From Candidatus Omnitrophota bacterium (GTDB taxonomy: Bacteria; Omnitrophota; Omnitrophia; Omnitrophales; Aquincolibacteriaceae), in assembly GCA_016196555.1 (NCBI GenBank), contig JACPXL010000022.1, positions 1-41,835 of the forward strand: a DNA stretch of 41,835 nt, read 5' to 3'. This document shows, one piece after another, positions 1 through 17,795 of the stretch (position 1 is the first letter of the stretch; every line of letters starts with the position of its first letter). The position numbers and the translations under genes were made by a program. Below the pieces are notes generated by a model that saw only the letters and a list, made by a program, of their open reading frames with translations, was not told where the DNA came from and ran no database searches.

Positions 1-311
1 CCCGCGGCTTCGTACTTTTTCACCATATGAATCACATTGGCCGCATTGCCATAGCCCGTGTCGCAATCGCAGACGACCGGAATGACGCAGGCATCGTTGA
101 TGGCGCGCGCCGCATCCAAATTTTCCGTCATAGTCAGGATATTGGCATCCGGCACAGCATGGGCGGTTGATATCTCAAGCCCGCTTGCCCAAACGCCGTC
201 AAAACCCGCGCGCTCGATCAATTTTGCTCCAAGGCCGTGATGCGCGCCAATAATACGCACGATCCTGCGTTTTTCAAAAAGTTCCCGAAGCAGACCGGCT
301 TTTTCGCTCAT
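1..311 (-). CDS. pepM: Phosphoenolpyruvate mutase (PEP phosphomutase), N-terminal part, truncated by the window start
   Basis: Reverse-strand translation MSEKAGLLRELFEKRRIVRIIGAHHGLGAKLIERAGFDGVWASGLEISTAHAVPDANILTMTENLDAARAINDACVIPVVCDCDTGYGNAANVIHMVKKYEA; PepM/isocitrate-lyase family motifs VWASG.E.S, PDANILTMTE, DCDTGYGN. Not in the ORF track because it runs off the edge. Confidence 0.88.
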   Translation of the reverse strand, partial: MSEKAGLLRELFEKRRIVRIIGAHHGLGAKLIERAGFDGVWASGLEISTAHAVPDANILTMTENLDAARAINDACVIPVVCDCDTGYGNAANVIHMVKKYEAA

Positions 312-1022
312 TTAGATATCCATCCCTTTCGGATAGTAATCTTTCTCGTCCTGGATGATGCGGGCCGCATTTTCCGGCCTAAGCAGGGCCAGTTCCTGGC
401 GCGCATCCCCGCCGATATTTTGGCCAAAAGTGATGGCCAGGATACGGCCTAGATTTTTGGGTTCCGGCGAATAAAAAGCATGCGGCACAAAGCCGGGAAT
501 CAGCCAGGAATCGCCTTCGGTAAAAATTTCCTCATGGACTTTGCCCTCCCATTCCCACAAATAGGCAACCGGTCCACCATGCAGCACCTGCGTGTATTGG
601 TGGAAAAAATGCCCGCGGTTTAGGATCACATCTTCGCGGCGATTCAAATGCAGCAGAAGCTCCACCGGTTTGAAATTCGGAAGCGCCTGTGACATGGCAC
701 GGTTCCAGTAACTATATTGTTTGCGGCCCGCACGCTCCTGATCAAAAAAGCAGGCGTCCTTATGACGCAGGATTTTGATGCCGCGCTTCAGGTCATTTTC
801 AAAAGGCAGGAGGTCGCGCACGCTCACGTAAAAATATTTGGCTAAAAGTTCCAACTCACGCCATTCGGGCTTGGCCTTGCCTTTTTCAAGCGCTTTCAGG
901 CGCACTTCAGCAATGCCTGTGCCGCCAGAAACCATGGCAAAAGTGTGTTTGATTTCATTGCGCCAGGCGTGGATCAGCCTGCCGTATTCCAGATAAGGTT
1001 GTGCTGAGGTTCCCTGTATCAT
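312..1022 (-). CDS. mpnS: Methylphosphonate synthase-like non-haem Fe(II) oxygenase (HEPD/MPnS/HppE family: N-terminal helical domain plus cupin)
   Basis: 236 aa. N135-R-G-H138-FFH-Q142 and I175-PGFVP-H181; Q at H+4 and I at H-6 match the MPnS 2-His-1-Gln arrangement rather than the HEPD/HppE Glu ligands. Stop codon abuts the pepM start (TAAATG). Confidence 0.72.
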   Translation of the reverse strand: MIQGTSAQPYLEYGRLIHAWRNEIKHTFAMVSGGTGIAEVRLKALEKGKAKPEWRELELLAKYFYVSVRDLLPFENDLKRGIKILRHKDACFFDQERAGRKQYSYWNRAMSQALPNFKPVELLLHLNRREDVILNRGHFFHQYTQVLHGGPVAYLWEWEGKVHEEIFTEGDSWLIPGFVPHAFYSPEPKNLGRILAITFGQNIGGDARQELALLRPENAARIIQDEKDYYPKGMDI

Positions 1023-1043: not shown

Positions 1044-1814
1044 TCATCTTGAGCTTTTATTCTGCCGCCAAAGAGCGGCAAGATTTTGAAAATCCTGCAG
1101 GGTGTCGATTTCGCGCCACCGGCCTTCGACCTGATGGCATTTTATGCGCACTCCTTGATCGGTTAAGTGTTGCAGCATGTCGGTCACATAAGCTTTTTCA
1201 AACGCCGCGGCGCGCTGAAAAGCGCGTCCTGCAAAATTACGGTATGCCTCTTCGTAACGTTCTTTGAATTGCCGGGCCCCGGCCCGGCTCAATTTCAGCA
1301 TGCCAATAAATTCCGCGTGGACCGGCCCCGTCTCCCTGGAAATCTTTCCAATACGCCGAACGTATTCCCCACCAGCCATCTCTACTGTCTCAGCTTCCGA
1401 TACGGGATGGTCGCTGCGTCCGTTATAGGCTTCGCGCCAGTTGGTATCCACGGCAATCACCATTTCTCCGGATGCGCGCGTCAAAGCAGCCGGGATGGAT
1501 GGCTCAAACCAGATGTCGGAATAAGAAATCAATAAATCATCGTCAAATTCAGCCGAGGCCTTCATTAACGATCCTAAGATGTTATTGCGCTCAAAATCCC
1601 GGTTCCAGACATAACGCACGTCCTGGCGCGTGAATTTATCCCCCTGGTAGCCGCGGACAACCACAATATCACGGATGCCGCACTGTCGAAATACCTTGAG
1701 TTGTTCCTCAAAAAGCGTTCGTCCCTGGGTGGCAATGGCAAGGCACTTGGGTAATTCACGCGTCATAGGAAGCAGCCGTTTGCCGATGCCTGCCGCAATC
1801 AAAATTACTTTCAT
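1044..1814 (-). CDS. pntC: PntC/LicC-like phosphonate (choline-phosphate type) cytidylyltransferase; listed ORF extends to a GTG at 1829
   Basis: MKVILIAAGIGKRLLPMTRELPKCL nucleotidyltransferase signature; YNGRSDHPVSEAETVE, GKISRETGPVHAEFIGMLKLS; immediately upstream of mpnS and pepM. Confidence 0.72.
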   Translation of the reverse strand: MKVILIAAGIGKRLLPMTRELPKCLAIATQGRTLFEEQLKVFRQCGIRDIVVVRGYQGDKFTRQDVRYVWNRDFERNNILGSLMKASAEFDDDLLISYSDIWFEPSIPAALTRASGEMVIAVDTNWREAYNGRSDHPVSEAETVEMAGGEYVRRIGKISRETGPVHAEFIGMLKLSRAGARQFKERYEEAYRNFAGRAFQRAAAFEKAYVTDMLQHLTDQGVRIKCHQVEGRWREIDTLQDFQNLAALWRQNKSSR

Positions 1815-1918
1815 AAATTCTTTAACCACAAATGGTTGGGGAGATGACCGGGATAAATCAAATCAGCACTCATCGCCACATAAACCGTCTTTCTTTTGGA
1901 TTTTGATCCCTTATTCAT
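1811..1918 (-). pseudogene. 35-codon remnant of the N-terminus of a PepM-associated cytidylyltransferase (TagD/glycerol-3-P cytidylyltransferase-like) domain
   Basis: Reverse-strand translation of a sub-60-aa ORF: MNKGSKSKRKTVYVAMSADLIYPGHLPNHLWLKNL*. VYVAMSADLI(H)PGHL is the first strand and HxGH motif of the nucleotidyltransferase domain found with PEP mutases; the rest is absent. The stop overlaps the pntC ATG (ATGA). Confidence 0.6.
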
Positions 1919-1922
1919 TTTG

Positions 1923-4028
1923 TTATCCCTCGAAGAAATCCGCATGATCTTTTTCCGGAGAACCCTGAGAACGATAAAGCCCCTTATCCTCGATCACTTT
2001 TCGAAATCGTTTGATCTGTTCTTCATAAGCCGGGTCCTCAGGAAAAAGGATTTTTCCCGAAGAAATTTCTTTAATTTCCTCCTGCAAACAATTTCCATTT
2101 TTTAATCCTTCTAATATTCGTTTGTATTCATAGCCATCACCTATAATCCGGCATTGATAATTGCCGGCAAAAATCATTTCTGAAATCGCTTGTTTTTTCC
2201 CCTGAAATTTCCCCTGTCGGTCGGGGAGAAAACTCCGGGAATAAGGACTCGGCTTGGAAGAAACGCCGGCCAAATCCGCCACCGTCGGATACAAATCAAC
2301 GCAGGTTTCAACAAAACCCGAGATTTCTTTTTTGTGTGTTTCTTTAAGCCAGGGGCATCGCATCAGCAAAGGAACCGAAAGCCTCTGCTCTGATAAATGC
2401 TTTTTTGCCCAAGTATCGATCCCTTGATCCATAGGAAGATTCACCCCATGGTCCGCCGTGAGGATAACAGCCGTACGACCCCCTAATGGGGTTCTTTCTA
2501 TGTATCCCAGCAATGATTCCAAAACAAAATCAAGTTCTGCAATTTTGTTGGTATAAACGGTGTTGTAAAAATGTTCTTCCTCGCTTTTTTTGCCTGATTC
2601 GGCTTTTCGAAGAATGTCCGCCGACTCATCGCGCAGCATTGAAGTTCCGAACCAACAGAATGGCGACTCTTGCTTGTTCGATAATCTCATGTCCAAATAA
2701 TGCAGAAATAAAAATTTGTTTTCGTCCGGGTGAGTGTGCAACATTTCAAGGGCCTTGGAGGTCACGTCCCTGGCAGTTGTTTTGCCTTCCGAAAAGATGA
2801 ACCTTTCGTATCCCCTTTCATGCCCGTATAAATGCGAGGACCGGGGATGGGTGGAATAGGCAAAAGTATAATAACCGGCTCGCTGAAGAATTTCCGCCAA
2901 AGTATCCACATTTTCAGGAAGACGTTTGATTTTGCTGTAATGAGGATTGACGATACGGTGATGGGAAGAATAAAGAGAAGTCGGAAAACTTGCAAAAGTG
3001 GGAAGCGTCCACTCCCCTTGCGTATAAGCTTGATGATAAATCGTATAATCCTTAAAAAACCGGTCGATGAAAGGCGTTTTTACTTTTCCGCCGTATAGCC
3101 CAATCATATCGGTACGCAAACCATCGACAATAATAACAATCACGTTTTTTTGCTGCGTCCCGGAAATTATGGGTGCTATGCGGGGTGAAAAATAAACCAA
3201 ACCGTTGCCTCGGAAATTTAATCGCACTTTGGATATTTTCCCGCTTGAAGAGCTATTTGAGAAATCAAGAAAGTCATTCCAGTCACGGCATAACGAATTC
3301 GTCTTTTTTTTCAAGACCAAGGCATCATCAAAAAAAACTTCTATCTCATCTTCAGCAGAAGATGTTTTTAAGACAAAAATGCCAAGCTGAAATTGTTTGG
3401 TTTCAAAAGACTGCGCGGCGGACAATTCTATTTCCCCGCCTTTATTTTCAATGATATTTCTAAGCTCGCCGTGCATTCTCTTTTTAAAGACTTTCGCATT
3501 GGGATCAAGCTTCCAACTTTTAAGAAAATGAGCGTCAGCTTTTAATTTTGTTTCAAACTGCTCTGGGCGGGATGGCCGAATCGTCCGGCCAGACTTTTTG
3601 GAAAGTTCAAAGAATTTCAGATAGTTTAAAAAAATCATAGAAGAAATTCCCAAATAAGCCCCGGCAAAAGGGAGCAAAATCCAATGCATCTGCCCGGCCG
3701 GTAAAGAGACGGCCAAAGGAATACTCAAAAGCTGTAATAAATGAAAATAGGACCAGCGGCACACTTTTTCCTGAAGCAGCTTTCCATGAAACCGGTGCCC
3801 GTCTTTAAAATTGAAGGACCTTTCGAAAAAGGTCACGGCACTGCCAAGAACGGCAAAATGGATCAATGCGAATAAAAGTGTATTGCCCAAAAGAAGGAAA
3901 TGAAACGGCGGCAGGCCGTGTTGATGAATCACGAAAAGATTAATGCCGAGCGTCGACAAAAATGAAGTCAGCGCAAATCCCATCAAATTTCGCGCATCAC
4001 TTAAGAGATAGCGAACGAGGCTTAACAT
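1923..4028 (-). CDS. Membrane-anchored alkaline phosphatase/sulfatase-superfamily protein (possible phospho- or phosphonotransferase)
   Basis: 701 aa with N-terminal TM helices, then NVIVIIVDGLRTDMIGLYGG...GEWTLPTFASFPTSLYSSHH...LTADHGVNL; Thr341 at the nucleophile position. Confidence 0.7.
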   Translation of the reverse strand: MLSLVRYLLSDARNLMGFALTSFLSTLGINLFVIHQHGLPPFHFLLLGNTLLFALIHFAVLGSAVTFFERSFNFKDGHRFHGKLLQEKVCRWSYFHLLQLLSIPLAVSLPAGQMHWILLPFAGAYLGISSMIFLNYLKFFELSKKSGRTIRPSRPEQFETKLKADAHFLKSWKLDPNAKVFKKRMHGELRNIIENKGGEIELSAAQSFETKQFQLGIFVLKTSSAEDEIEVFFDDALVLKKKTNSLCRDWNDFLDFSNSSSSGKISKVRLNFRGNGLVYFSPRIAPIISGTQQKNVIVIIVDGLRTDMIGLYGGKVKTPFIDRFFKDYTIYHQAYTQGEWTLPTFASFPTSLYSSHHRIVNPHYSKIKRLPENVDTLAEILQRAGYYTFAYSTHPRSSHLYGHERGYERFIFSEGKTTARDVTSKALEMLHTHPDENKFLFLHYLDMRLSNKQESPFCWFGTSMLRDESADILRKAESGKKSEEEHFYNTVYTNKIAELDFVLESLLGYIERTPLGGRTAVILTADHGVNLPMDQGIDTWAKKHLSEQRLSVPLLMRCPWLKETHKKEISGFVETCVDLYPTVADLAGVSSKPSPYSRSFLPDRQGKFQGKKQAISEMIFAGNYQCRIIGDGYEYKRILEGLKNGNCLQEEIKEISSGKILFPEDPAYEEQIKRFRKVIEDKGLYRSQGSPEKDHADFFEG

Positions 4029-4606
4029 CGATCATCTCCCTGATGAGTCAAAAAATCTAAAGCGCGCGTTAGAAGCAAGGACGAACATTCTTCAACCGAT
4101 TTGTTTGCCGTATCCAAAATAAGATCAGGATGGTTTGATTTCTCGTATGGCTCCGTCACTCCGATAAAATTCTCATAAAGGCCTTCAAAGGCTTTGCGGT
4201 AATGGCCTTTATAATCCCGCTTGGCACAAATTTCCGCCGGACAGTCCAGATAAACCTCCATAAACCGGCCGATTAATTTCCGGGCCTGATCGCGCAATTC
4301 TTTAACATGAGAAATTACGCAGACAATCGCGATTTTCCCATTTTGATTCGATTGGAATGCCAGTTCCGCCAATTTCAAAGTGACGACATTGCGATCTCCG
4401 GTAGAAAATCCGTATTGTTTATCAAGCCGCTTGCGCACCTCTTCACCGTCTAAAAGATCGATGGGAGTAATTCCCGCCGCCATTAAACTATCTCGTAAAT
4501 TTTTACCCATCGTGCTTTTGCCCGACGCCGAAAGCCCTGTAATCCAAATCGTTCCGGCCGTTTTCACTTTAAGTTGTTTTTTCGGTTTTGACTGTTGTCG
4601 CATCAT
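4022..4606 (-). CDS. cysC: Adenylylsulfate kinase-like protein
   Basis: GTIWITGLSASGKST P-loop, DGEEVRKRL, GFSTGDR, RDYKGHYRKAFEGLYENFIGVTEPYE...PDLILDT. Confidence 0.75.
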   Translation of the reverse strand: MMRQQSKPKKQLKVKTAGTIWITGLSASGKSTMGKNLRDSLMAAGITPIDLLDGEEVRKRLDKQYGFSTGDRNVVTLKLAELAFQSNQNGKIAIVCVISHVKELRDQARKLIGRFMEVYLDCPAEICAKRDYKGHYRKAFEGLYENFIGVTEPYEKSNHPDLILDTANKSVEECSSLLLTRALDFLTHQGDDRC

Positions 4607-5552
4607 GTTTGATCGCCCATTGAATGGTGCGCTTCATCCCTTCGTTAAAATTTACTTTCGGTTCCCAACCGAGTGTTTTACGGACTAATGAAATATCGGC
4701 CACCATGTTCTTTTGATCTCCCGGACGAAGCGGTGCGTAGCGAACGGGATAATCCTTGCGTGATTTTCCGAAAGCTTCCAGAACCGTATCGGCCAGACGG
4801 TTAATGGAATGCGGCACACCGGTACCAAGATTAAAAACACGCCCGTCAGCTTCAGAAGAATTCAAAGCCAGAATCCAAGCTCGAGCCACATCTTCAATAT
4901 GAACAAAATCCCGGGTTTGCTCCCCATCGGAATGAATCGTGATCGGTTCTCCGCGGAGGAGATTACCAATAAATATTCCCGCCACGCCTTGATAAGGATT
5001 GTTAAGTCCTTGGCGCTCGCCATAAACATTGAACATGCGAAAAGAAGTCACGAAAAATTTAAAGTCGAGATCATTTCGCAGCGCCGTGGCATGAACGTAT
5101 CGTTCCGCCGCATATTTGGTAATTCCATAATACGAAACGGGTTTTAGAATTTCGTTTTCGTGAATAGGAACTTTTTCGGGAAAACCATAAGTGGTCATGG
5201 AACTGGCAAATAAAAGCCGGGAGACTTTATATTGCAAACATTTGCTTAGAACGTTCAATGTGCCATGAACATTCACTTCAAGATCATTTTTAGGATCGGT
5301 GAAAGAAAGGATGGTCGAGGTCTGGCCTGCGATATGAAAGACGGCATCGACTCCTTTTCGAAAGACTTTATCCAATTCTGCCGAGTTTCGGACATCGGCT
5401 TTGTAATATTCCGCTTGCGGATTTACGTTATAGGCAAAACCCGTCGACTCATTATCCAGGCAGACTACATGCCAGCCCGAAGCCAACAACTTGTCCGCAA
5501 GATGACTTCCGATAAACCCCGCTCCCCCCGTAATCAAAACCCGTTTTTTCAT
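4569..5552 (-). CDS. NAD-dependent epimerase/dehydratase (UDP-glucose 4-epimerase-like)
   Basis: MKKRVLITGGAGFIGSHLADKLL, YYGITKYAAERY (YxxxK), NLGTG, RPGD. Confidence 0.82.
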   Translation of the reverse strand: MKKRVLITGGAGFIGSHLADKLLASGWHVVCLDNESTGFAYNVNPQAEYYKADVRNSAELDKVFRKGVDAVFHIAGQTSTILSFTDPKNDLEVNVHGTLNVLSKCLQYKVSRLLFASSMTTYGFPEKVPIHENEILKPVSYYGITKYAAERYVHATALRNDLDFKFFVTSFRMFNVYGERQGLNNPYQGVAGIFIGNLLRGEPITIHSDGEQTRDFVHIEDVARAWILALNSSEADGRVFNLGTGVPHSINRLADTVLEAFGKSRKDYPVRYAPLRPGDQKNMVADISLVRKTLGWEPKVNFNEGMKRTIQWAIKHDATTVKTEKTT

Positions 5553-6859
5553 CGTTTCAATTCCTTTTCTCTCTTCAATGAATGATCCGGAACATTCATT
5601 TTTGTTTTTGCCAATCGTTCAAGTTCAGCCACGATTTGTTTGGCGGCAACGTCCGATTTAAAATTTTTCTCGTACGTTTCGCGCCCCTTAAGTTGAAGCC
5701 GTTTGCGCAATTCGACATCTCGAACCACACGAACGATCTGACGCGCAAGTTCTTCCCCGGTCGAACCAAGCAGACAATTTTCTTCGTGAACAAGTTCTGG
5801 AATATTGGCCGATTCATAAGTATGCGCGACCAGACAACAACCAAAAGAAAGCCCTGTGACAATGCGAAGTCGAATCCCAAGTAAAATGGGCGTCGGACAT
5901 AATTGAATGTCCGCAGATAAAAATTCATCATCAGCTGGGCGAATGGCCCCCGTGATCTTGACGGACGGATGGTCTAAACGCTGCGCTAAATCTTTGGAGA
6001 GCGTCCCTCCCCCGACAATCCGAACTTCAAATCCATCCTTCCCCAATTCTTTTTCTAAAACTGGCAAAATTTGCTCTGCAAATAAACGAATCCCAGCGTT
6101 TGTCGAAGTCGCCGTCACATTACTTGGCCCCAGAAGAATTCTTGGTTTAATTCTTGAGGGAATTGCTTTACGTTTTTGCCAAACATTCTCACCCACCGCA
6201 TCGACGATAGGACTTTTTAAATAAGCGCATTGATTCGCACCATGTTTTCTTAGCCAGGCGGCATCATAAGCTCCGAAGCATCCCACGGATTCGCAATGAT
6301 TGAGAAACCAGGCCATCAAGCGCGGCGTATGCAGATTATTTCTGAACGTGTTCAGGGTTTGGCCCAAATAAGAAAAACTAAAAGAAAACTTCGTTCGCTG
6401 CCATCGGTAAAAATTCGGCCAATGCCAAAGATCCGCCGTGCCTGCCATGCGCGGAACTAAATTCAAACCGTGCGTTGCCGCGATTGCCGTGTAGTGATAA
6501 GCAAAAATAACGTCCGGCTGCAAGCCTTCGAGCAAGCTCTTCATTTTTAAAACGAGCTTAAAGGAAGGAAACAAGGCTTCAACATCGGGCCAAATCAAAC
6601 GTTTCCAAGGCCTAATCCATTTTTCATAAAAAGATTGCGCTTTCTCTTCAGGCACTTGAACTAAAAAAAATTCAACATTTCTCGCCGCTAGCCATTGCTT
6701 GGATTCTTCGACTCCCTCAGGCTCTAGAGAATCGCTTAAGCAGTAATAAGTCACTTGATGACCCGCCTTCAAAAGCTCTTCCAATACCCCCCAGCAGGTC
6801 ATAGGAGCACCGCTCGTACTTGAATGAGGCGGGCAGTGAGCAATAAAGGCGACTTTCAT
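5549..6859 (-). CDS. Glycosyltransferase, GT4/GT1-like (GT-B fold); start moved to MKVAFIAHCPP
   Basis: MKVAFIAHCPPHSSTSGAPMTCWGVLEELLKAGHQVTYY; C-terminal HEENCLLGSTGEELARQIVRVV...; the downstream start is compatible with the stop of the upstream gene at 6862. Confidence 0.7.
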   Translation of the reverse strand: MKVAFIAHCPPHSSTSGAPMTCWGVLEELLKAGHQVTYYCLSDSLEPEGVEESKQWLAARNVEFFLVQVPEEKAQSFYEKWIRPWKRLIWPDVEALFPSFKLVLKMKSLLEGLQPDVIFAYHYTAIAATHGLNLVPRMAGTADLWHWPNFYRWQRTKFSFSFSYLGQTLNTFRNNLHTPRLMAWFLNHCESVGCFGAYDAAWLRKHGANQCAYLKSPIVDAVGENVWQKRKAIPSRIKPRILLGPSNVTATSTNAGIRLFAEQILPVLEKELGKDGFEVRIVGGGTLSKDLAQRLDHPSVKITGAIRPADDEFLSADIQLCPTPILLGIRLRIVTGLSFGCCLVAHTYESANIPELVHEENCLLGSTGEELARQIVRVVRDVELRKRLQLKGRETYEKNFKSDVAAKQIVAELERLAKTKMNVPDHSLKREKELKR

Positions 6860-6861
6860 CT

Positions 6862-7926
6862 TTATCCTTTCTTCACGCAAATATTTTGAACAAGGTCTTG
6901 GAAAATATCATCGATCGAACGCGTAATGTCCCAGGAAGGATAATCTGACTTTAAATGTTTTAAATTTGTGATGTAACAAATATGATCGCCGAGGCGCGGA
7001 GTTTCGATATATTCGGTTTTCATTTTTTTATTTATCAATCTTTCGAATCGCGTAATGGCTTCGAGAACTGAAATGCTATTCGCCCGTCCCCCGCCTAAAT
7101 TGTAAACAGCCCCGGCTTTTGGATTTTCATAAAAGGCCAAAAAAGCCGTGCACACATCATGAGCATGAATATTGTCACGAACTTGTTTGCCCTTATAACC
7201 ATAAATCCGATAAATGCGATCTTCACTAATGGCACGCGCAACATAAGCAAGAAATCCATGATTTTCGGCAGCAGCGTGGCGGGACCCTGTCAAACATCCC
7301 CCACGAAAACAAACCGTCGGCATACCAAAATAACGTCCATACTCTTGGACCATTTGATCAGCGGCTAATTTTGAAGTACCGAAAAGACTATGAAGGCATT
7401 GATCCACGCTGCAAGATTCATCCACACCGTCCCTGTCTTTTGGATTTTCATAATCGTAACGGGTTTTAAGCTCGACAATTGGCAGTTTGTTTGGAATATC
7501 CCCATAAACTTTGTTCGTGCTCATAAAAACAAACGGTGAATCGGGACAATTGCGGCGGGCAGCTTCAAGCAGGTTTAAAGTTCCAAGCGCATTCACTTCG
7601 AAGTCTTCAAAAGGCCGCTCCGCGGCTAAATCATGGGACGGCTGGCCAGCACAATGAATAATCAAATCTGGATGCTGATTACGAATAAGCTTTTCCATAG
7701 CCTCTCGATTTCTTATGTCTAAGTCATGATGCGTAAATCGCCGAGTGGATTCAGAAAGTCTTTTCAAATTTTGAGTCGTATCTCCATCGGGTCCAAAAAA
7801 GATCTTTCGCATATTGTTATCCACACCTTGGATTTCCCAGCCGCGCTCGTCAAAAAAACTCACGGCTTCTGATCCAATGAGTCCACTTGAACCTGTAATG
7901 AGCACTTTTTTCATTTTTGTTCCCAC
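6862..7926 (-). CDS. NAD-dependent epimerase, CDP-paratose 2-epimerase-like
   Basis: KKVLITGSSGLIGSEAVSFF, HCAGQPSHDLAAERPFEDFEVNALGTLNLLEA, DESCSVDQCLHSLFGTSKLAADQMVQEYGRYFGMPTVCFRGGCLTG. Confidence 0.72.
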   Translation of the reverse strand: MGTKMKKVLITGSSGLIGSEAVSFFDERGWEIQGVDNNMRKIFFGPDGDTTQNLKRLSESTRRFTHHDLDIRNREAMEKLIRNQHPDLIIHCAGQPSHDLAAERPFEDFEVNALGTLNLLEAARRNCPDSPFVFMSTNKVYGDIPNKLPIVELKTRYDYENPKDRDGVDESCSVDQCLHSLFGTSKLAADQMVQEYGRYFGMPTVCFRGGCLTGSRHAAAENHGFLAYVARAISEDRIYRIYGYKGKQVRDNIHAHDVCTAFLAFYENPKAGAVYNLGGGRANSISVLEAITRFERLINKKMKTEYIETPRLGDHICYITNLKHLKSDYPSWDITRSIDDIFQDLVQNICVKKG

Positions 7927-7927
7927 A

Positions 7928-8755
7928 TTAAATAATGTCTGCGAAACTCCGCTCCATCCGTCGGAAATAAATGAGTCCGCCGATCAACAGAGCAAAAACG
8001 GTCAAACTCGAAACGATTAACATTCCGATATCCGGCCTATTTGCGCCCAGAAGCACCCAGCGAAATCCTTCCACAACTCCCGCCATGGGGTTTAATCCGA
8101 ATAAAGGTTTCCATGCATCAGGAACAAGGCTGCTTGGATAAGCAATAGGCGTTGCAAAAAGCCAAAACTGAATTAAAAAAGGCACGATGTACCGCACATC
8201 TCGAAATTGCACATTGAACGCAGAAAGCCATAAACCCACAGCTAAAGAAGAAGCCAAAGTTAAAATTAAAAATAATGGCAGAAAAAAAATAGCGTGCGTA
8301 GGTACGATTCCATAATAAAACATCATCCCAATCAAAACGACAAAAGCGACTGCAAAATCGACAAGCCCAGCCAATATGGCTGAAATGGGAATCACCAAAC
8401 GCGGAAAATAAACTTTCGTGATTAAATTCTGATTGGCAACAAGGCTATTGCTGGACTCCGAAAGCGAATGGGCAAAAAGCTGCCAGGGCAAAAGCGCGCA
8501 ATAAGCAAAAATGGGGTAAGGAATTCCATCGGAAGGAATTTTTGCAAGACGTCCAAAAAAAATACTGAATACAACCATGGTCATAAACGGCTGCAAAATG
8601 GCCCAAGTCGCGCCAAGCGCCGCTTGTTTATAACGGACTTTGATATCCCGCCAGGTAAGAAAATAAAGCAGCTCTCGATATTCCCAAAGCTCTCGCAATT
8701 CGAGAGAGCTCCCGCTTTTAGGAACTGTGATTGATAACGTATTATTTTTTTCCAT
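7928..8755 (-). CDS. wzm: ABC-2 type transporter permease (Wzm/TagG-like polysaccharide exporter)
   Basis: LLYFLTWRDIKVRYKQAALGATWAILQPFMTMVVFSIFFGRLAKIPSDGIPYPIFAYCALLPWQLF; six-TM hydropathy pattern. Confidence 0.83.
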   Translation of the reverse strand: MEKNNTLSITVPKSGSSLELRELWEYRELLYFLTWRDIKVRYKQAALGATWAILQPFMTMVVFSIFFGRLAKIPSDGIPYPIFAYCALLPWQLFAHSLSESSNSLVANQNLITKVYFPRLVIPISAILAGLVDFAVAFVVLIGMMFYYGIVPTHAIFFLPLFLILTLASSLAVGLWLSAFNVQFRDVRYIVPFLIQFWLFATPIAYPSSLVPDAWKPLFGLNPMAGVVEGFRWVLLGANRPDIGMLIVSSLTVFALLIGGLIYFRRMERSFADII

Positions 8756-9608
8756 TGTTCGAACTCGTTTTCACAAGCGCACCAAAATTGGGATTGTTTT
8801 TATGAACCGCCATCGGCACATTTTCGGCAACCGCAAAATCCCAAAAAGCTGTATTCCAGCCAATATCATCCGAAATTAAAATTCCGCCATCCGTCAAATG
8901 CGACCATGCAGCAGTATATTCCCACATCATTTGGTTATAGGTATGGTCCGAATCATGAAAAAAGACTTCCACGTTTCCGAGCCGGTTTAAAAGCGGCATC
9001 AACTCATCGAGAGCATTCCCCTGAATCAAGGTCCAAGCCTTTTTCAATTCCTCGGGGACAAGGAATCCTATTTCAACTCCGTCAGGAAGTGACCAATCCA
9101 TGCTCTGCTCGCCCTTCTTTGCGGAAAGATCCACGGTATAAAGATGCCCTTTATGATTATGATGAATCGCCAGGAGAAAAAGCGCCGACGTCCAACCTGT
9201 CGCACAACCCGTTTCGACAATCACAGAAGGTTGCAAGAAACGGCAGGCCACATAACAAAAAAGTTCAGTGGTCAAACCAACTCCCAATGTCTTTTTCTCG
9301 AAATCCTTATTAAGGACTTTCTTATGCGCCGCGAGCAAATCTTTAAGCGGTTGAAAATTTTTAAGCTCGGTAAAATACTGACGCACCATGGCCTCTGAAA
9401 CATTAAGTGAGAGAGGAAGGATTTTTTTTAAACATTGAGCTGCGTCAGCAATCGCTAGATTCTTACGAACATCCTGCCAAAGGGCCTTACGATTATCTAT
9501 TTGTCCTGAATCAAAAAGTTTTGCGCTTATTTGACGAAGTCCGAAACGTCCCGCCTTAGGGACCACTTCCTGTAAATTCTTCATGAGTGTTTTTTGATTA
9601 GGTGACAT
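8742..9608 (-). CDS. Class I SAM-dependent methyltransferase
   Basis: SVIVETGCATGWTSALFLLAI...LYTVDLS...VEVFFHDSDHTYNQMMWEYTAAWSHLTDGGILISDDIGWN. Confidence 0.7.
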   Translation of the reverse strand: MSPNQKTLMKNLQEVVPKAGRFGLRQISAKLFDSGQIDNRKALWQDVRKNLAIADAAQCLKKILPLSLNVSEAMVRQYFTELKNFQPLKDLLAAHKKVLNKDFEKKTLGVGLTTELFCYVACRFLQPSVIVETGCATGWTSALFLLAIHHNHKGHLYTVDLSAKKGEQSMDWSLPDGVEIGFLVPEELKKAWTLIQGNALDELMPLLNRLGNVEVFFHDSDHTYNQMMWEYTAAWSHLTDGGILISDDIGWNTAFWDFAVAENVPMAVHKNNPNFGALVKTSSNNGKK

Positions 9609-10625
9609 TTAACGCTCGGTTAACATGCGATGAAAAATCGCTTTCACTTCGTCCGGCTTTTTCGTTGAAAAATACCAATCGATTGTCCGGTGCAGCCCAT
9701 CCATGAATTTCATTTTGGGTTCCCAGCCAAGAAGTTTCTTTGCCAATTGATTGTCCGCAACCCGGTTGAGCGGTCCCGTCGGCATATGCGGCTGCAATTT
9801 GATTTCCGCTTTTCGTCCCGTGTACCGCAAAACTTCTTTCACCGCATCGATCACCCGCGTACGCTCCATGGTTCCCAAATTGATAGCCGCTCCGTCATCG
9901 ATTTTTTCACCCGCTAAAATCATTCCGCTGACAATGTCTTTGACATAAGTCCAGTTTCGAATTTGTTCTCCTGTGCCCCAAACCTCAAATGGATCTTGCT
10001 TGATGAAAGCCCGGGCAATCATGGCAATCACGGCGTGATTTTCCACACCGCGTTCTCCGTAAACGGTGAAAAATCGGCACGAAGCCGTTTTCATTTTCCA
10101 ATCTTTGGAGTAAGCGCGCAGAGTCATTTCGCCCATGAGCTTGGCCCATCCATAAAGATTATCCGCATCATAGGGCGGACCGACCATTTCTTCGGTGAGG
10201 TACAATTCCTTTTTTAAATCGGACTGCAAATAAGTGGGATAAACACAGCCTGAGGAGGCATAAACAATTTTTTCGACCTTGGCCTGATAAGCTGCGCGAA
10301 AAACTAGCCCATCCAGCATTAAATTTACACCGCAGGCGGCCTGGTGAAGATCGACATACCCTCGGCCTCCGTGATCTGCGGCCAAGTGAAAAACAACATG
10401 GATTCCCTTCACTGCCGCGCGGGTCACCGTATCATCACGCAAATCACCTTGGCTAAATTCCACCGCGCCTTTGTCAATGTGATGCTGAATATTTTCAAGC
10501 CGGCCGCTTGATAAATCGTCAACCACGCGGATTTTTGCCCCTTTTTCGAGCAATGAGTCCACTAAATGAGATCCAATAAACGAAGCCCCTCCTGTCACCA
10601 AAATCTTTTTGTCTTTCCAATTCAT
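9609..10625 (-). CDS. NAD-dependent epimerase/dehydratase
   Basis: KKILVTGGASFIGSHLVDSLLEKGAKIRVVDDLSSG, HLAADHGGRGYVDLHQAACGVNLMLDGLVFRAA, YGWAKLMGE (YxxxK). Confidence 0.8.
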   Translation of the reverse strand: MNWKDKKILVTGGASFIGSHLVDSLLEKGAKIRVVDDLSSGRLENIQHHIDKGAVEFSQGDLRDDTVTRAAVKGIHVVFHLAADHGGRGYVDLHQAACGVNLMLDGLVFRAAYQAKVEKIVYASSGCVYPTYLQSDLKKELYLTEEMVGPPYDADNLYGWAKLMGEMTLRAYSKDWKMKTASCRFFTVYGERGVENHAVIAMIARAFIKQDPFEVWGTGEQIRNWTYVKDIVSGMILAGEKIDDGAAINLGTMERTRVIDAVKEVLRYTGRKAEIKLQPHMPTGPLNRVADNQLAKKLLGWEPKMKFMDGLHRTIDWYFSTKKPDEVKAIFHRMLTER

Positions 10626-11746
10626 TTCTTGATTCCTCCCACCGCAGTTAAATATTTTTCGAAAATTTGTGTCAGACGACTTATCATGATTTCATAGCTA
10701 TGATGCGTAAGGGTTTTTTGCTGCCCTTGAATAGCGATCTGCTCCCGTTCCACTGCGTGATAAAGATAATGACTCATTTTTTCTAATAGCTCCTCCACGG
10801 TCCGATAAGCCAAGGCTTCTTGACCCTGAACAAAAAAATCGGACAAATTTTGTTTCCAATCGGTGACTAAACACGCCCCGACTCCGGTAGCTTCAAAGAG
10901 TCTCGCGTTATTGGCATATTCCTCTGCCACATCGATATGTGAATTAACGGTCATTTTGCTGGCTGCCAGCACCTCATACATTTCATTTCCCCAAACTTCT
11001 CCCCGCCACGCTTTTCTTAAAGCTGAATTCTTAGGGAGCGTCTCAATACCATAGCCGAACCAGGCCAAGGGATACTGCTGGCATACCTTTTCCAGCAATT
11101 CCACACGGGAACGATGCTCTTTAGAAACGCCGCCGATAAAAGTCACGTCAAATGTCTTCTCGATTTTTGCGGTTTGATTCAAAACCCGCCGGTCAAAGGC
11201 AAGCGGTAAATATTCTGCGTTCATATTCCGGGAGCGAAATAGCGGAATAAAATGCGGGAAGGAACTCACCACCAAGTCCATGGTCTGATAATTACGTCTC
11301 TGCAAAAGCGGTGATGCCATCTGACAAGCCATCAAGCGCGCGTATTTCTTCAGCTCACCGATCATGTTATCCGTAAACAAATTTTGCTCCTGGACAAGGA
11401 CCACGTCCGGCTCAATGCTTCGAATTTGTTCGCGCACAATCTCGAATCTCCAATCGAGTCCCAATAAATAATTCCCGGCGTTCGACATGAGCTGAGGAAA
11501 GGCCGTAATTTTTAATCCATTTTCTTTGGCCCATTGAAGCTGCGTGCGCTCATCATTGACAACAAATTCCTGCGCCTCATGCCCCAATTGTTTGAAGTAA
11601 TAAGAATAAGAATCGAAAGTTCCGAAACGTTCCTGCATCAAAGCATGGCGCTGTTCTTCAAAGCAAGAATTCGATGTGAGAGGATGGTCAGCATGATACT
11701 TTTGCAAAAACTTTGGATAGTAGTAATCCAGAATGATAATCTTCAT
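10622..11746 (-). CDS. CgeB-like glycosyltransferase (GT-B); start moved to MKIIILDYYYPKF
   Basis: FDVTFIGGVSKEHRSRVELLEKV...NNARLFEATGVGACLVTDWKQNLSDFF...GQEALAYRTVEELLEKMSHYL. Confidence 0.65.
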   Translation of the reverse strand: MKIIILDYYYPKFLQKYHADHPLTSNSCFEEQRHALMQERFGTFDSYSYYFKQLGHEAQEFVVNDERTQLQWAKENGLKITAFPQLMSNAGNYLLGLDWRFEIVREQIRSIEPDVVLVQEQNLFTDNMIGELKKYARLMACQMASPLLQRRNYQTMDLVVSSFPHFIPLFRSRNMNAEYLPLAFDRRVLNQTAKIEKTFDVTFIGGVSKEHRSRVELLEKVCQQYPLAWFGYGIETLPKNSALRKAWRGEVWGNEMYEVLAASKMTVNSHIDVAEEYANNARLFEATGVGACLVTDWKQNLSDFFVQGQEALAYRTVEELLEKMSHYLYHAVEREQIAIQGQQKTLTHHSYEIMISRLTQIFEKYLTAVGGIKK

Positions 11747-11866
11747 GAAAAATTTTTCCGGTCCGTCTTCATGAATAAAAAGCTCATGCAACGCCCCGAC
11801 TTGTCCGATCTATTTGATTGAGGTTGTTGTTTTATTAACTATCAAACAATAACAGAAACTAATAAA

Positions 11867-11895
11867 AATATACAATAACATGTAACTAATATCAA
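11867..11895 (-). promoter_or_regulatory. Candidate sigma70-like promoter for the minus-strand glycan operon
   Basis: On the minus strand TTGATA (11895-11890), 17 nt spacer, TATATT (11872-11867), in the AT-rich divergent intergenic region. Confidence 0.4.
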
Positions 11896-11931
11896 TATTA
11901 TCGACAAAAAAAGTTTAGACTGTAACTCTTT

Positions 11932-12738
11932 ATGACGCCTAGTATTACAATCATTATGCCCTCCTATAACCAGGCAGGCTTTATCAAAGAATCGATAGAA
12001 TCGGTCCTCCGCCAGACTTTTCCCTCTTTTGAACTGCTGGTGATCGATGGGGGCAGCACCGACGGAACCGTCGAAATTCTTCGAAAAATTCAGGATTCCC
12101 GCCTCCGCTGGATCTCAGAAAAGGACAAGGGGCAAGCAGATGCCATCAATAAGGGATTCAAAATGGCTTCGGGAAATATTCTGGCTTGGCTGAACGCCGA
12201 TGATCTTTACTTCCCTAACGCTTTAACGACTGTAGGAAATTTTTTCGCCCAACACCCCCAGACCCTTTGGGCCATCGGTCAATGCACGATTATCAATGAG
12301 CATGGAAAGGAAATCCGAAAATGGGTCAGCGCTTATAAATCCTGGCGCCTTAGCCAATATTCCTATTCCGCTCTTTTAAGTGAAAATTTCATTCCTCAAA
12401 TGAGTGTTTTCTTCCGCAAGGATGCCATTGCCAAAGTCGGCGGCGGGGTCGACGAAAATTTACATTACGCGATGGATTATGATCTGTGGCTGCGTTTAGG
12501 AAAACAATTTGAGCCGGGCTTTATTCCCGAGCCGGTTGCAAAATTCCGGATGTATGCGGCCACAAAATCAATCACCGGTTTTCACCGGCAATTTCAGGAG
12601 GATTACGAAGTAGGAAAAAAATACTCCGGCAATGCTTTTTGGCCTGTTTTTTTTCATGGAATTAACCGTCTCAAAATTGTTACAATCTACCAGCTTTTGG
12701 CGCTCTTCCGGAAATTCGGCCGGCCGCCTCGCAATTAA
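11932..12738 (+). CDS. Glycosyltransferase family 2
   Basis: PSITIIMPSYNQAGFIKESIESVLRQTFPSFELLVIDGGSTDGTVEIL...GNILAWLNADDLYFPNA. Confidence 0.87.
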   Translation: MTPSITIIMPSYNQAGFIKESIESVLRQTFPSFELLVIDGGSTDGTVEILRKIQDSRLRWISEKDKGQADAINKGFKMASGNILAWLNADDLYFPNALTTVGNFFAQHPQTLWAIGQCTIINEHGKEIRKWVSAYKSWRLSQYSYSALLSENFIPQMSVFFRKDAIAKVGGGVDENLHYAMDYDLWLRLGKQFEPGFIPEPVAKFRMYAATKSITGFHRQFQEDYEVGKKYSGNAFWPVFFHGINRLKIVTIYQLLALFRKFGRPPRN

Positions 12739-12776
12739 AATAAATCATCGCGGGATATTCCTGCTCAGGAGAAAAT

Positions 12777-13766
12777 ATGAAAAAGGCTTTAATCACCGGC
12801 ATCACAGGGCAAGATGGAAGTTATTTGGCCGAATTTCTTTTACAGAAAGGTTATCAAGTCCACGGAATCATTCGCCGGTCAAGCTCCTTTAATACCGCGC
12901 GTATTCAGCATCTCTATCAAGACCCGCACGAGGCCAATGTGCGTTTTTTTCTGCATCACGGCGATCTGCACGACGGAGGAAATTTAAAACGTTTGCTCGA
13001 GCAAATTCAGCCGGATGAAATTTATAATCTCGGCGCTCAAAGCCATGTGCGCGTCAGCTTTGACATTCCTGAATATACGGCGGATGTGACGGCCATTGGA
13101 GTGCTGAGAATTCTGGAAGCGATTCGTGAAACAAAAGTTAAAACGCACTTTTATCAGGCCTCCAGCAGTGAAATGTTCGGAAAAGTCATTGAAACCCCTC
13201 AAAGAGAAACCACTCCGTTTTATCCGCGCAGTCCTTATGGCTATTCCAAAGTTTTCGCCTACTGGGCCACCGTGAACGCACGGGAAAGTTATGGGCTCTA
13301 TGCCTGCAACGGAATTCTTTTTAATCATGAGTCGCCTCGGCGCGGAGAAACTTTTGTCACGCGAAAAATTTCCAAAGCCGTGGCCAAAATTAAAAAGGGC
13401 CTGCAAAAAGAGCTTTTTCTGGGAAACATTGAAGCAAAACGCGATTGGGGTTATGCCAAGGATTATGTCGAAGCCATGTGGATGATGCTTCAGCAAAAAA
13501 ATGCCGACGATTATGTCATTGCGACGGGAGAAACTCATTCCGTGCGGGAATTTCTCGAAGAGGCCTTCGCTTATGTCGGCCTTGATTGGAAGAAATACGT
13601 CAAAACCGATCCCCGATATTTCCGTCCGGCTGAAGTTGATCTTTTGGTCGGAGATCCTGCCAAAGCCAAAAAATTATTGGGCTGGAAACCGCGCATTAGC
13701 TTTAAGCAATTGGTCCACCTGATGGTGGATAGTGACATGAATGGTTCCGAAGTCACTCCTTACTAA
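12777..13766 (+). CDS. gmd: GDP-mannose 4,6-dehydratase
   Basis: [80 protein letters not shown] upstream of the ATG. Confidence 0.9.
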
Positions 13767-13835
13767 ACTTCCCCATAAAACCAAACCTGACCTAATCCAT
13801 TCCTTCGTCTATTGTTAGCCAAGCCATATCCCGGC

Positions 13836-13864
13836 TTGACTTATTGCCGTCTATTGAGTAAATT
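13836..13864 (+). promoter_or_regulatory. Candidate sigma70-like promoter upstream of the Gfo/Idh gene
   Basis: TTGACT (13836-13841), 17 nt spacer, TAAATT (13859-13864) in the 207 bp gmd-Gfo/Idh gap; the -35 overlaps the right arm of a small hairpin (CAAGCC atatccc GGCTTG). Confidence 0.4.
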
Positions 13865-13973
13865 TATTGTTAGCAAAAGCTATCATTAAATAGCAAATAG
13901 TTACAATTTAGTTCAAAATTTTCAAGACAAAGGCCCAATTGTTCGATAACTTAAAGCAACACAGGAACTTATC

Positions 13974-14987
13974 ATGATAAACATTGGCATTATCGGCTGC
14001 GGACAATGGGGCCCCAATCACGTCCGCAATTTCTCCCATCTTTCCGGAAGCCGTGCCCTGATGTGCGCTGATTTAAATGAAAAGCGCCTCAAGGCCATGA
14101 AAGAAACTTTCCGTAATATTCATCCGACCTATGATCACCGGGAAATCCTTAGGCATCCCAAAATTGATGCGGTGGTTATTTCCACCCCGACCAAGACCCA
14201 TTATCAGCTGGTTAAAGAAAGTCTTTTGGCAGGCAAAGATGTTCTCTGCGAAAAGCCACTTTGCACTAGTATTCCAGAAGCGCGTCAGCTGATCAAATTG
14301 GCCAAAAAATTAAAACGCATCTTGATGGTGGGCCATGTTTTTCTCTTTAACAGCGGGATTCAAAAACTTCACAATTTAATCGACGACGGCTCCTGCGGGC
14401 GTCTTTATTACATGCATTCTCAACGCACTAATTTGGGCCCTTTCCGCACCGACGTTAATGCTGTTTGGGATTTGGCCACTCATGACATTGCGATCTTTAA
14501 TCACCTTTTGAAATCACAGCCGTTGGAAGTTTCGGCACGCGGCGGAAAATTTCTTCAAAAAAAGATTGAGGATGTGGCTTTTATTTCGCTCTTTTATCCC
14601 ATGAATGTTCTGGTCAATATTCACGTGAGCTGGCTTGATCCGCGCAAAGTCCGCCAGATTACCGTGGTGGGAGACAAAAAAATGGTGATCTGGGATGACC
14701 TCGATAATGTCGGTCCAATCCGCTGCTATGACCGGCGTGTTATTCCCCATTATTATTATCAAACTTTCGGGGAATTTTATCTTCTGGCCAAAGAAGGAAA
14801 TATCACTATTCCGAAAGTCGATTTATCGGAACCCTTAAAAGCGCAAGATGGTCATTTCCTGGATTGCATCCGCAATCGCAAACAACCTCTGACCAATGCC
14901 CAATCCGGTCTCGACGTGATCAAAGTCCTTGAAGCCATTCAAAAATCATTGGCGCAAAAAGGCCGTTCCGTACGCATCCCCTCATGA
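13974..14987 (+). CDS. Gfo/Idh/MocA-family oxidoreductase (WlbA-like sugar dehydrogenase)
   Basis: MINIGIIGCGQWGPNHVRNF Rossmann motif, VVISTPTKTHYQLVKESLLAGKDVLCEKPLC. Confidence 0.85.
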   Translation: MINIGIIGCGQWGPNHVRNFSHLSGSRALMCADLNEKRLKAMKETFRNIHPTYDHREILRHPKIDAVVISTPTKTHYQLVKESLLAGKDVLCEKPLCTSIPEARQLIKLAKKLKRILMVGHVFLFNSGIQKLHNLIDDGSCGRLYYMHSQRTNLGPFRTDVNAVWDLATHDIAIFNHLLKSQPLEVSARGGKFLQKKIEDVAFISLFYPMNVLVNIHVSWLDPRKVRQITVVGDKKMVIWDDLDNVGPIRCYDRRVIPHYYYQTFGEFYLLAKEGNITIPKVDLSEPLKAQDGHFLDCIRNRKQPLTNAQSGLDVIKVLEAIQKSLAQKGRSVRIPS

Positions 14988-15721
14988 AAGCCCTGGTCAT
15001 CATTCCTATTTTTGATGAAGGCGTAAAAATGAAAATGACTTCCACCCGGATGCGCGATTTTTTGGAAGCACGCTCAAGGCGGGACCCTCAAATTGACATC
15101 ATGCTCATGGATGACGGCTCTCCCAAACCGAATGTGGAGCCCATGGCAAAAAAATTTGGTTTCTTGAGTTTACGCAATCCTGCCCGAAGCGGCGTTGGAT
15201 TTTCCATTCGAAGGGCCTATGATTACGGTCTGGAAAAAGGCTATGACATTTTGATTACCATGGCGGGAAATAATAAAGACAATCCCGATGAATTGGACCA
15301 ACTTATGGAACCGATTGTTTCGCAACGGGCCGACTTTGTTCAGGGGTCCCGTTATTTGTCCGGCGGGAATTTCGGCAACATGCCTTTTTACCGCCTTTTC
15401 ACAACCCGTTATATCCATCCCCTGCTTTTTTCGCTTGCGGCGGGCAAACAAATCACTGACAGCACCAACGGCTTCCGCGCGATTCGCGCTTCGGTTTTAC
15501 GCGATCCTCGTTTGAATCTGCACCAGGATTGGCTTGATCAATATGAACTCGAACCTTATCTTTTTCATAAAGCGATTCGTTTAGGCTATCGCGTGACGGA
15601 AGTTCCCGTAACTAAAATTTACCCGGACAAAAAACTAGGCTATTCAAAAATGAAACCCATCATTGGCTGGTGGAGCATTTTACGGCCTGTCATTTACCTA
15701 CTGCTGAGGATTAAAACATGA
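14984..15721 (+). CDS. Glycosyltransferase family 2 (DPM1-like) with atypical DXD region
   Basis: KALVIIPIFDEG...LMDDGSPKP...ILITMAGNNKDNPDELDQLM...FVQGSRYLSGGN...TDSTNGFRAI. Confidence 0.78.
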   Translation: MKALVIIPIFDEGVKMKMTSTRMRDFLEARSRRDPQIDIMLMDDGSPKPNVEPMAKKFGFLSLRNPARSGVGFSIRRAYDYGLEKGYDILITMAGNNKDNPDELDQLMEPIVSQRADFVQGSRYLSGGNFGNMPFYRLFTTRYIHPLLFSLAAGKQITDSTNGFRAIRASVLRDPRLNLHQDWLDQYELEPYLFHKAIRLGYRVTEVPVTKIYPDKKLGYSKMKPIIGWWSILRPVIYLLLRIKT

Positions 15722-16197
15722 TCACTCCCGATGTCAAACTTGGTAAAAACGTTGTGATTCATCATCCTGATTTGGTGAATCTTTACGGCTGTCAAATCGA
15801 TGATGAAAGCCGGATCGGAACCTTTGTTGAAATTCAAAAAGGCTCTGTGATCGGAAAGCGCTGCAAAATCCAAAGTCATACTTTTATTTGCGAAGGCGTG
15901 ACGATTGAAGACGGCGTTTTCGTGGGGCACGGTGTGATGTTCATCAATGACCTTTATCCGCGGGCCCTGAATGAAGACGGCAGCATGCAGACCGAAAAGG
16001 ATTGGGTGCTTATCCGCACCAAAATCGGAGCAGGCGTCACTATTGGCAGCAACGCTACGATTTTAGGCGGCATTAAAATCGGGAAAGGTGCTCTTATCGG
16101 GGCCGGAGCTGTTGTCACCAAAAATGTACCGGATTACGCGATTGTCGCCGGTGTCCCTGCCAAAACGATTGGAGACGTTCGTAAAAAACGGAAATAA
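15718..16197 (+). CDS. Left-handed beta-helix (hexapeptide) acyltransferase, WlbB/FdtC-like
   Basis: Hexapeptide repeats (GVTIGSNATILGGIKIGKGALIGAGAVVTKNVPDYAIVAGVPAKTIGD). Confidence 0.85.
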   Translation: MITPDVKLGKNVVIHHPDLVNLYGCQIDDESRIGTFVEIQKGSVIGKRCKIQSHTFICEGVTIEDGVFVGHGVMFINDLYPRALNEDGSMQTEKDWVLIRTKIGAGVTIGSNATILGGIKIGKGALIGAGAVVTKNVPDYAIVAGVPAKTIGDVRKKRK

Positions 16198-16198
16198 T

Positions 16199-17386
16199 AT
16201 GAAAATTGCATGGTTTCATTCCCATTTACTCAATTGGTCGGGCGGGACTAAATTTCTCTATGAAACCCTTAAACGCCTCAATGAACGCGTCGATATCACA
16301 ATTTTTGTGGAAGCAGCAGATGAAAAGCTGCAGGCCATTTTTGAAGAATCCGGCATTAAGGTGGTCGCCTTTACACGCACCCGTTCCTCAAAAAGCCATA
16401 CTTACTGGCTCTTTTTTCCTTTCTTTATTGTCCAGGAAATTTTTTGGGTGTACCGGAAAGTCAAAAATTTTGACATGTATGTTTCGAGTTTCTTCCCCAT
16501 GAATTACGTTCTCTTTAAAGCCGGTAAAAAGCCGCATATTTTCTTTTGTTTTGAACCTTTTGTTTTTATCCATGACCAGGACATGATTAACGGTTTTGGC
16601 TTACAAAAGCGCCTGGCGCTCCATTTTCTGCGGTTTTTGTATGCAAAAAAAGACATTCGTGCCAGCCGAGCCGCGGACTCGATTTTAACTTTGAATGCGG
16701 ATGTGGCCAAATCGGTAACACAAACCTACAACCGTGAGCCCGGCCTCACTTACATGGGAGTGGATATTGATTCTTTCCGTCACTATCCGGATACGCCTTA
16801 TGCTCAAAAGTATGCGTCTAAAAAGGTCATTATTCACAGCACGGACTATACTCCTCTCAAAAGGACCTGGTTTTTAATTCAATCGATGGAAAACATCATT
16901 AAACGTGTCCCTAACGCCGTTTTGCTCATTACCCATTCTCAAGACGATCGTAGAGAAAAACAAAAAATGGAAAATTACATCCATGAACACGGTTTGGATC
17001 AGCATGTTGAGTTTCTTGAATTCCTGGACTATGCGGTCTTGCCGCAATATTACAGCCTGGCCGATATTGCAGTTTATCCGGGAATCGGCTGCGGAGCTGC
17101 GGCTTCCAGCTATTTTGTCCTTGAATGCATGGCCTGCGAAACACCTTGTGTGCGCACTAATACTACGACTGAGGAAACCGCTGACGGGGTTTCAGGATAT
17201 TTATTCGATCCCTACGATTCAAATGATATGGAAGAAAAAATCATCCGTCTTTTAACCGATAAAAATCTCGCGGTTAAAATGGGCAAAAATGCGCGTAAAA
17301 CCGTTCTCGATCGATACAACTGGAATTTAGTCACGAATAATTTTTTACAAGCATTCAAAAAACATTTGGATTTCGTGAGGGCTTAG
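16199..17386 (+). CDS. Glycosyltransferase family 4 (start moved from 16088 to 16199)
   Basis: MKIAWFHSHLLNWSGGTKFLYETLKRL...YSLADIAVYPGIGCGAAASSYFVLECMACETPCVRTNTTTEETADGVSGYLFDPYD. Confidence 0.83.
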   Translation: MKIAWFHSHLLNWSGGTKFLYETLKRLNERVDITIFVEAADEKLQAIFEESGIKVVAFTRTRSSKSHTYWLFFPFFIVQEIFWVYRKVKNFDMYVSSFFPMNYVLFKAGKKPHIFFCFEPFVFIHDQDMINGFGLQKRLALHFLRFLYAKKDIRASRAADSILTLNADVAKSVTQTYNREPGLTYMGVDIDSFRHYPDTPYAQKYASKKVIIHSTDYTPLKRTWFLIQSMENIIKRVPNAVLLITHSQDDRREKQKMENYIHEHGLDQHVEFLEFLDYAVLPQYYSLADIAVYPGIGCGAAASSYFVLECMACETPCVRTNTTTEETADGVSGYLFDPYDSNDMEEKIIRLLTDKNLAVKMGKNARKTVLDRYNWNLVTNNFLQAFKKHLDFVRA

Positions 17387-17387
17387 C

Positions 17388-17795
17388 ATGGACATTGAAA
17401 AGGTCGAACATGGCGGAACTTTATATGCCATTGTCTTCCGCAAAGAAATGAATGTTCAGGACGGGGTGAAATTTTTAACTCCCGTAGAATACCCTCTTCA
17501 AGTTGGTTTAATCGAGAGGAAAAAAGGCTATGCCTTCCGTCCTCACAGCCATCGGGACATGCATTACAATGTCAACACAACTCAAGAATTTCTTTACGTC
17601 GAAAAGGGCAGCCTTAAAGCTAAAATCTATGACGCCAATTGGAGTATTATTTATGAGACGGTATTGCGTGCGGGTGATTTTTTTCTGGCCATTACCGGCG
17701 GACATTCTTTCGAAGTTCTCGAAAATGTCCGTCTTTTGGAAGTCAAACAAGGGCCTTATCCGGGCGATCAATATGCCAAACGCTTTAAAGAATAA
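17388..17795 (+). CDS. Small cupin-domain protein in a sugar biosynthesis cluster
   Basis: YAFRPHSHRDMHYNVNTTQEFLYVEKGSLKAKIYD...GDFFLAITGGHSFEVLENVRLLEVKQGPY. Confidence 0.6.
   Translation: MDIEKVEHGGTLYAIVFRKEMNVQDGVKFLTPVEYPLQVGLIERKKGYAFRPHSHRDMHYNVNTTQEFLYVEKGSLKAKIYDANWSIIYETVLRAGDFFLAITGGHSFEVLENVRLLEVKQGPYPGDQYAKRFKE

Follow-up and report, generated by a model that had tools for sequence, protein, structure and literature searches.

A methylphosphonate synthase relative with one domain and MPnS-like active-site residues, encoded beside pepM in an uncultured Omnitrophota bacterium

Methane in oxygenated water comes in part from methylphosphonate. The methylphosphonate synthase (MPnS) of Nitrosopumilus maritimus (6b9s/6b9t) is a protein of 457 aa with two cupin domains and a His-Gln-His triad. 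HEPD, which cleaves 2-hydroxyethylphosphonate (2-HEP) to hydroxymethylphosphonate (HMP) and formate, likewise has two domains, and the HEPD of S. albus (6b9r) shares this triad but has Gly in place of the MPnS Ile; Gln alone therefore fails to separate MPnS from HEPD. In contrast, the fosfomycin epoxidase HppE (1zz6, 5u55) consists of one helix-turn-helix (HTH) domain and one cupin, and uses Glu142 as a ligand. A 2025 paper lists a working MPnS criterion, i.e., the His-Gln-His triad plus a Phe and an Ile, which are required for methylphosphonate formation (PMC11978286).

The window, i.e., the whole stretch of 41,835 nucleotides that was analysed, belongs to an uncultured Omnitrophota bacterium. 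Its gene at 312-1022 (minus strand, ATG start) encodes a protein of 236 aa (P0001), identified by alignment, residues and predicted structure as a single-domain MPnS-like cupin oxygenase (HTH plus cupin); no Pfam or NCBIfam family was assigned to it at E 0.001. Among solved structures, phmmer gave MPnS 6b9s as the best match (E = 3.1e-40), with both of its cupin domains matching the 236-aa protein, followed by S. albus HEPD (7e-28); the HEPD PhpD (3g7d) matched much more weakly. The AlphaFold2 model (mean pLDDT 81, pTM 0.61) consists of an HTH domain and a cupin, and a Foldseek search with it placed MPnS 6b9s first (E = 1.7e-15) and S. albus HEPD next, while the highest target-normalised TM-score, up to 0.79, belonged to HppE. 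An HppE-like epoxidase would fit this single domain and this size, and the K, R, Y, N and both His residues of HppE are in place. However, Gln142 stands where HppE has Glu142, the sequence match to HppE is far weaker (6.6e-9 for the Pseudomonas enzyme and 6e-5 for that of S. wedmorensis), clade and pathway differ, and no fosfomycin-type methyltransferase was seen in the clusters, making this function very improbable.

By sequence, the gene encodes a half-size relative of MPnS: a one-domain member of the MPnS/HEPD/HppE superfamily in which the active-site residues follow the MPnS pattern. Loss of a second domain by frameshift or assembly error was ruled out: the stop codon of 312-1022 is immediately followed by the start codon of pepM, so that no second domain is hidden in the window, and the gene has the same length in three other genomes. 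A mere XRE-type transcriptional regulator was also dismissed, as the iron ligands and substrate residues are intact and no DNA-level evidence of regulation was seen. To our knowledge, a single-domain MPnS has not been described; a search of a literature collection that did not include the main MPnS structure paper turned up no such report. Neither this architecture nor pepM as the next gene was part of the original prediction.

The residues on which that prediction was built, N135-x2-H138-x3-Q142 and I175-x5-H181, lie exactly where it had placed them, and homology (the phmmer match to MPnS) raises them above chance. In the printed alignment, H138, F139, Q142, I175 and H181 pair with H148, F149, Q152, I184 and H190 of MPnS, and H138 and Q142 pair with H138 and E142 of HppE. 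The predicted iron ligands are H138, Q142 and H181, the predicted substrate-side residues are K25, R97, Y103, Y105 and N135, and the MPnS markers are F139, H141 and I175; an equivalent of MPnS Lys28 is also present. The prediction had treated Gln and Ile as diagnostic of MPnS. Both are present, but the pair is insufficient given the triad of S. albus HEPD, and the adjacent Phe is also needed; with F139, the 236-aa protein carries the complete triad, Phe and Ile set of the 2025 paper. The three single-domain relatives described below all keep the residues equivalent to N135, H138, F139, Q142, I175 and H181.

HEPD shares family and fold with the 236-aa protein, and the triad of S. albus HEPD speaks for an HEPD-like function, in which 2-HEP would be cleaved at this iron site, giving HMP and formate. 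However, S. albus HEPD has Leu, Tyr, Gly and Met at the positions of F139, H141, I175 and E121, its GHLLYQ standing against GHFFHQ here. To place these differences in context, first domains of 38 MPnS-type and 23 HEPD-type sequences were compared at the 11 separating positions where the single-domain clade has a fixed letter (position 229, represented by a single letter in each type just before a gappy end, was left out). The clade is MPnS-like at seven (115, 121, 139, 141, 175, 179 and 192), HEPD-like at none and of neither type at four (21, 165, 174 and 176). Residues 141 and 175 had served to define the types, which makes those two circular; the other five (115, 121, 139, 179 and 192) are free of this circularity. 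G175 and M121 occur in every one of the 23 HEPD-type sequences, and the HEPD type has Tyr, Asn or Phe at position 141 and Leu or Phe at 139, where the 236-aa protein has Ile, Glu, His and Phe. Mixed markers occur in a Marine Group I thaumarchaeote (L054:2910-4301), with GHFMHQ as in MPnS and Gly at the Ile position as in HEPD.

Domains were separated before tree building, and 53 first domains, 49 second domains, the four single-domain proteins and two HppE sequences were included. First domains from MPnS and from HEPD cluster together (100/99), and the four single-domain proteins make up a second group (100/99) outside that cluster, in trees rooted with only two, long-branched HppE sequences; a plasmid search for further HppE outgroups returned one unrelated XRE regulator only. 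The single-domain proteins appear as sisters of the first domains with support of 97/65, and the alternative in which their clade split off before the duplication was unrejected (p-AU 0.41). Forcing them inside the MPnS type costs 34 log units (p-AU 0.068), which is disfavoured but short of strict rejection. Without the second domains, a 98/93 branch parts the single-domain proteins and HppE from all MPnS and HEPD, a point on the side of the HppE-like reading, and placement inside the MPnS type was unrejected (lnL -7.4, p-AU 0.21). Being separate from both MPnS and HEPD, the clade is assigned no product by the tree, and this position also counts for the HEPD-like reading.

The alignment and tree with MPnS, HEPD and HppE proposed alongside the original prediction thus gave a divided answer: the alignment is closest to MPnS, but the tree places the single-domain clade outside MPnS plus HEPD. 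Its architecture (236 aa, one domain) and its place in the tree set the protein apart from canonical MPnS, and it is about 30-35% identical to the N. maritimus enzyme. The call of a probable MPnS holds for the residues, the best structural match and the neighbourhood, and has to be amended to a non-canonical one. The MPnS-like residues could be an ancestral state. A tentative extension, which we consider possible but doubtful, is that the four proteins descend from a single-domain stage that preceded the MPnS/HEPD duplication and already made methylphosphonate as homo-oligomers.

About a dozen positions that hardly vary across the whole two-domain set are occupied differently in the single-domain clade, including Q102, W106 and R108 beside the active-site tyrosines and P176 and G177 in the region of the second His, suggesting that the substrate or product may differ. 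These changes, together with the long stem branch of the clade (1.2 changes per column), favour a third outcome, namely a cupin oxygenase that acts on 2-HEP or another two-carbon phosphonate and gives a different product (e.g., a hydroxylated or dehydrogenated phosphonate). On the other side, the full MPnS marker set is found in all four members, which also retain K25, R97, Y105 and N135, the substrate-side residues common to HppE, MPnS and HEPD. We regard this third outcome as rather unlikely.

Relatives were sought in 85,462 species genomes, and 63 were found. Only two are single-domain, one from Omnitrophota nzgw286 (L009, 242 aa) and one from Nitrospinia OFTM166 (L008, 231 aa). The remaining relatives number 61, and 56 of these have both domains or two-domain length; three are cut by contig ends (L036, L058, L070), one is masked (L057), and one stops just into domain 2 (L056). 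A fourth single-domain protein (238 aa, 73-75% identical) is encoded by G004, a genome of the same family as that of the window, so that the set comprises the window's own protein, two from other Omnitrophota and one from a Nitrospinia metagenome-assembled genome (MAG). The Nitrospinia assignment is unsure, since the genome of L008 (G386) has two different rpoB genes and may be mixed. The gene is rare, occurring in 2/386 sampled genomes of the window's phylum (plus one spurious match, E = 8e-4) and 1/77 of the phylum of the Nitrospinia MAG, and viral contigs scanned with the 236-aa protein gave no relative. This patchy spread suggests horizontal transfer. Base composition agrees weakly: GC is 52-54% at positions 1-1400, where the phosphonate genes lie, and about 44% over the remainder of the first 14 kb.

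The original prediction saw its novelty in an MPnS outside marine hosts. That view did not survive the genome scan, since two-domain MPnS-type genes also occur in MAGs of Omnitrophota, Elusimicrobiota, Deltaproteobacteria, Woesearchaeota and Nanoarchaeota (L017, L056, L037, L038, L041 and L053), several of them from groundwater, such as that of a deltaproteobacterium; L017 belongs to another Omnitrophota bacterium. The host range of MPnS-type genes is wider than marine plankton.

As in N. maritimus, phosphonate genes and a LicC-like nucleotidyltransferase lie next to the MPnS-like gene. The minus-strand order in the window is nucleotidyltransferase, MPnS-like gene, pepM. The LicC/PntC-like nucleotidyltransferase (NTP1; 1044-1829, minus strand), directly upstream, is proposed to activate a phosphonate with CTP. 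PEP mutase (pepM; 3-311, minus strand) is cut by the contig end after its N-terminal 103 aa, which are 77% identical to the PepM of G004. Neither ppd nor the iron alcohol dehydrogenase (Fe-ADH) was found in the window's own genome (86% complete, with the contig ending inside pepM); on its face a point against the proposed pathway, this failure is uninformative, because the rest of pepM is absent from the whole assembly. At the G004 locus, a nucleotidyltransferase gene and the MPnS-like gene are followed by a fusion of PepM to a second nucleotidyltransferase, then by Ppd (TIGR03297, 371 bits against a cut-off of 312) and Fe-ADH (best NCBIfam model TIGR03405, below cut-off), so that the whole 2-HEP pathway is found in a family relative of the window's genome. 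L009 shares this order except for Ppd, a match to which, with one internal TAG, lies on another contig. In the Nitrospinia MAG, the nucleotidyltransferase and MPnS-like gene pair is accompanied by Fe-ADH, and pepM and a split ppd lie on other contigs. Between its MPnS-like gene and Fe-ADH, an orphan 283-aa protein is encoded (L008:8782-9633) that has no Pfam or NCBIfam match, and next come genes for a CDP-alcohol phosphatidyltransferase and for a questin-oxidase-like protein; this composition is a further point for the third outcome. The PepMs of G004, L009 and the Nitrospinia MAG all contain the EDK(X)5NS motif.

NTP1 has the nucleotidyltransferase fold of the LicC/PntC cytidylyltransferases (best solved match LicC 1jyk, 2.5e-11) but forms a separate group that adjoins MPnS-type genes. 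Its homologues (E < 1e-30) lie near 21/37 MPnS-type genes and near none of 22 HEPD-type genes (Fisher p = 3e-6, uncorrected for relatedness), whereas PepM, Ppd and Fe-ADH are equally common beside both types. An NTP1-type gene is directly upstream in all four single-domain loci. In addition, a Chloroflexi MAG encodes a natural fusion of an NTP1-type nucleotidyltransferase to a two-domain MPnS-type enzyme (L032:7083-9197, 704 aa), a direct link of the two predicted activities. Genes of the PntC type are frequent members of phosphonate clusters (PMC6697681), and attachment of the phosphonate to something has been proposed for marine MPnS producers (PMC9381506). The association of NTP1 with MPnS-type genes thus favours an attached phosphonate over an antibiotic pathway through HMP. 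It counts against an HEPD-like function, as does the lack of any further recognised HMP-pathway gene near the single-domain genes, and we consider that function unlikely.

Beyond NTP1, the polysaccharide genes of the window fit attachment to a putative surface acceptor. A membrane protein with a sulfatase/alkaline-phosphatase-superfamily domain (1923-4028, minus strand) is possibly a phosphonate or sulfate transferase or hydrolase, with a putative link to the pathway. An adenylylsulfate-kinase family protein (4022-4606, minus strand) has homologues near several MPnS-type genes, and a surface polysaccharide region (4569-18912) encodes epimerases, glycosyltransferases, an ABC-2 exporter subunit, GDP-mannose dehydratase and a DegT aminotransferase. 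At the far end of the window, an open reading frame running off the contig (40635-41834, minus strand) is built of short 'LS.AGVNW.D'-type repeats.

In the RpoB tree, the window's genome groups with G004 and G009 (100/100), beside two named Omnitrophota (94/93). Heme-copper oxidases are found in G004 and G387, and these aerobic respiration genes fit an O2-using enzyme; a search of the genome that holds the window (86% complete) for COX1 and bd oxidase found neither, a point against this reading.

Because of the residues, the best structural match and the gene neighbourhood, methylphosphonate synthesis is favoured over HMP or an epoxide. It is likely (about 0.6) that the predicted enzyme works like MPnS and, with the same rough probability, that it makes methylphosphonate destined for a cell-surface glycan. 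In the proposed pathway, 2-HEP would be formed from PEP through PepM, Ppd and the iron alcohol dehydrogenase. The 236-aa protein, an HppE-sized, single-domain iron(II)-dependent oxygenase with a His-Gln-His iron site, would then convert 2-HEP and O2 to methylphosphonate, probably as a homo-oligomer whose subunits stand in for the two fused domains of canonical MPnS. The LicC-like nucleotidyltransferase may use CTP to activate this phosphonate, which would then be attached to the surface polysaccharide, the putative final acceptor.

This single-domain gene would escape any survey that filters for the length of a two-domain MPnS or for high identity to marine reference sequences. If the protein does make methylphosphonate, an enzyme half the size of the two-domain MPnS carries out the same reaction, and it would offer a simpler protein in which to study the choice between methylphosphonate and hydroxymethylphosphonate, as well as an evolutionary link from HppE to MPnS and HEPD. 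If the four proteins also descend from a stage before the duplication, methylphosphonate synthesis would be older than the two-domain architecture. A methylphosphonate product would also make bacteria of groundwater and sediment possible producers of this methane precursor.
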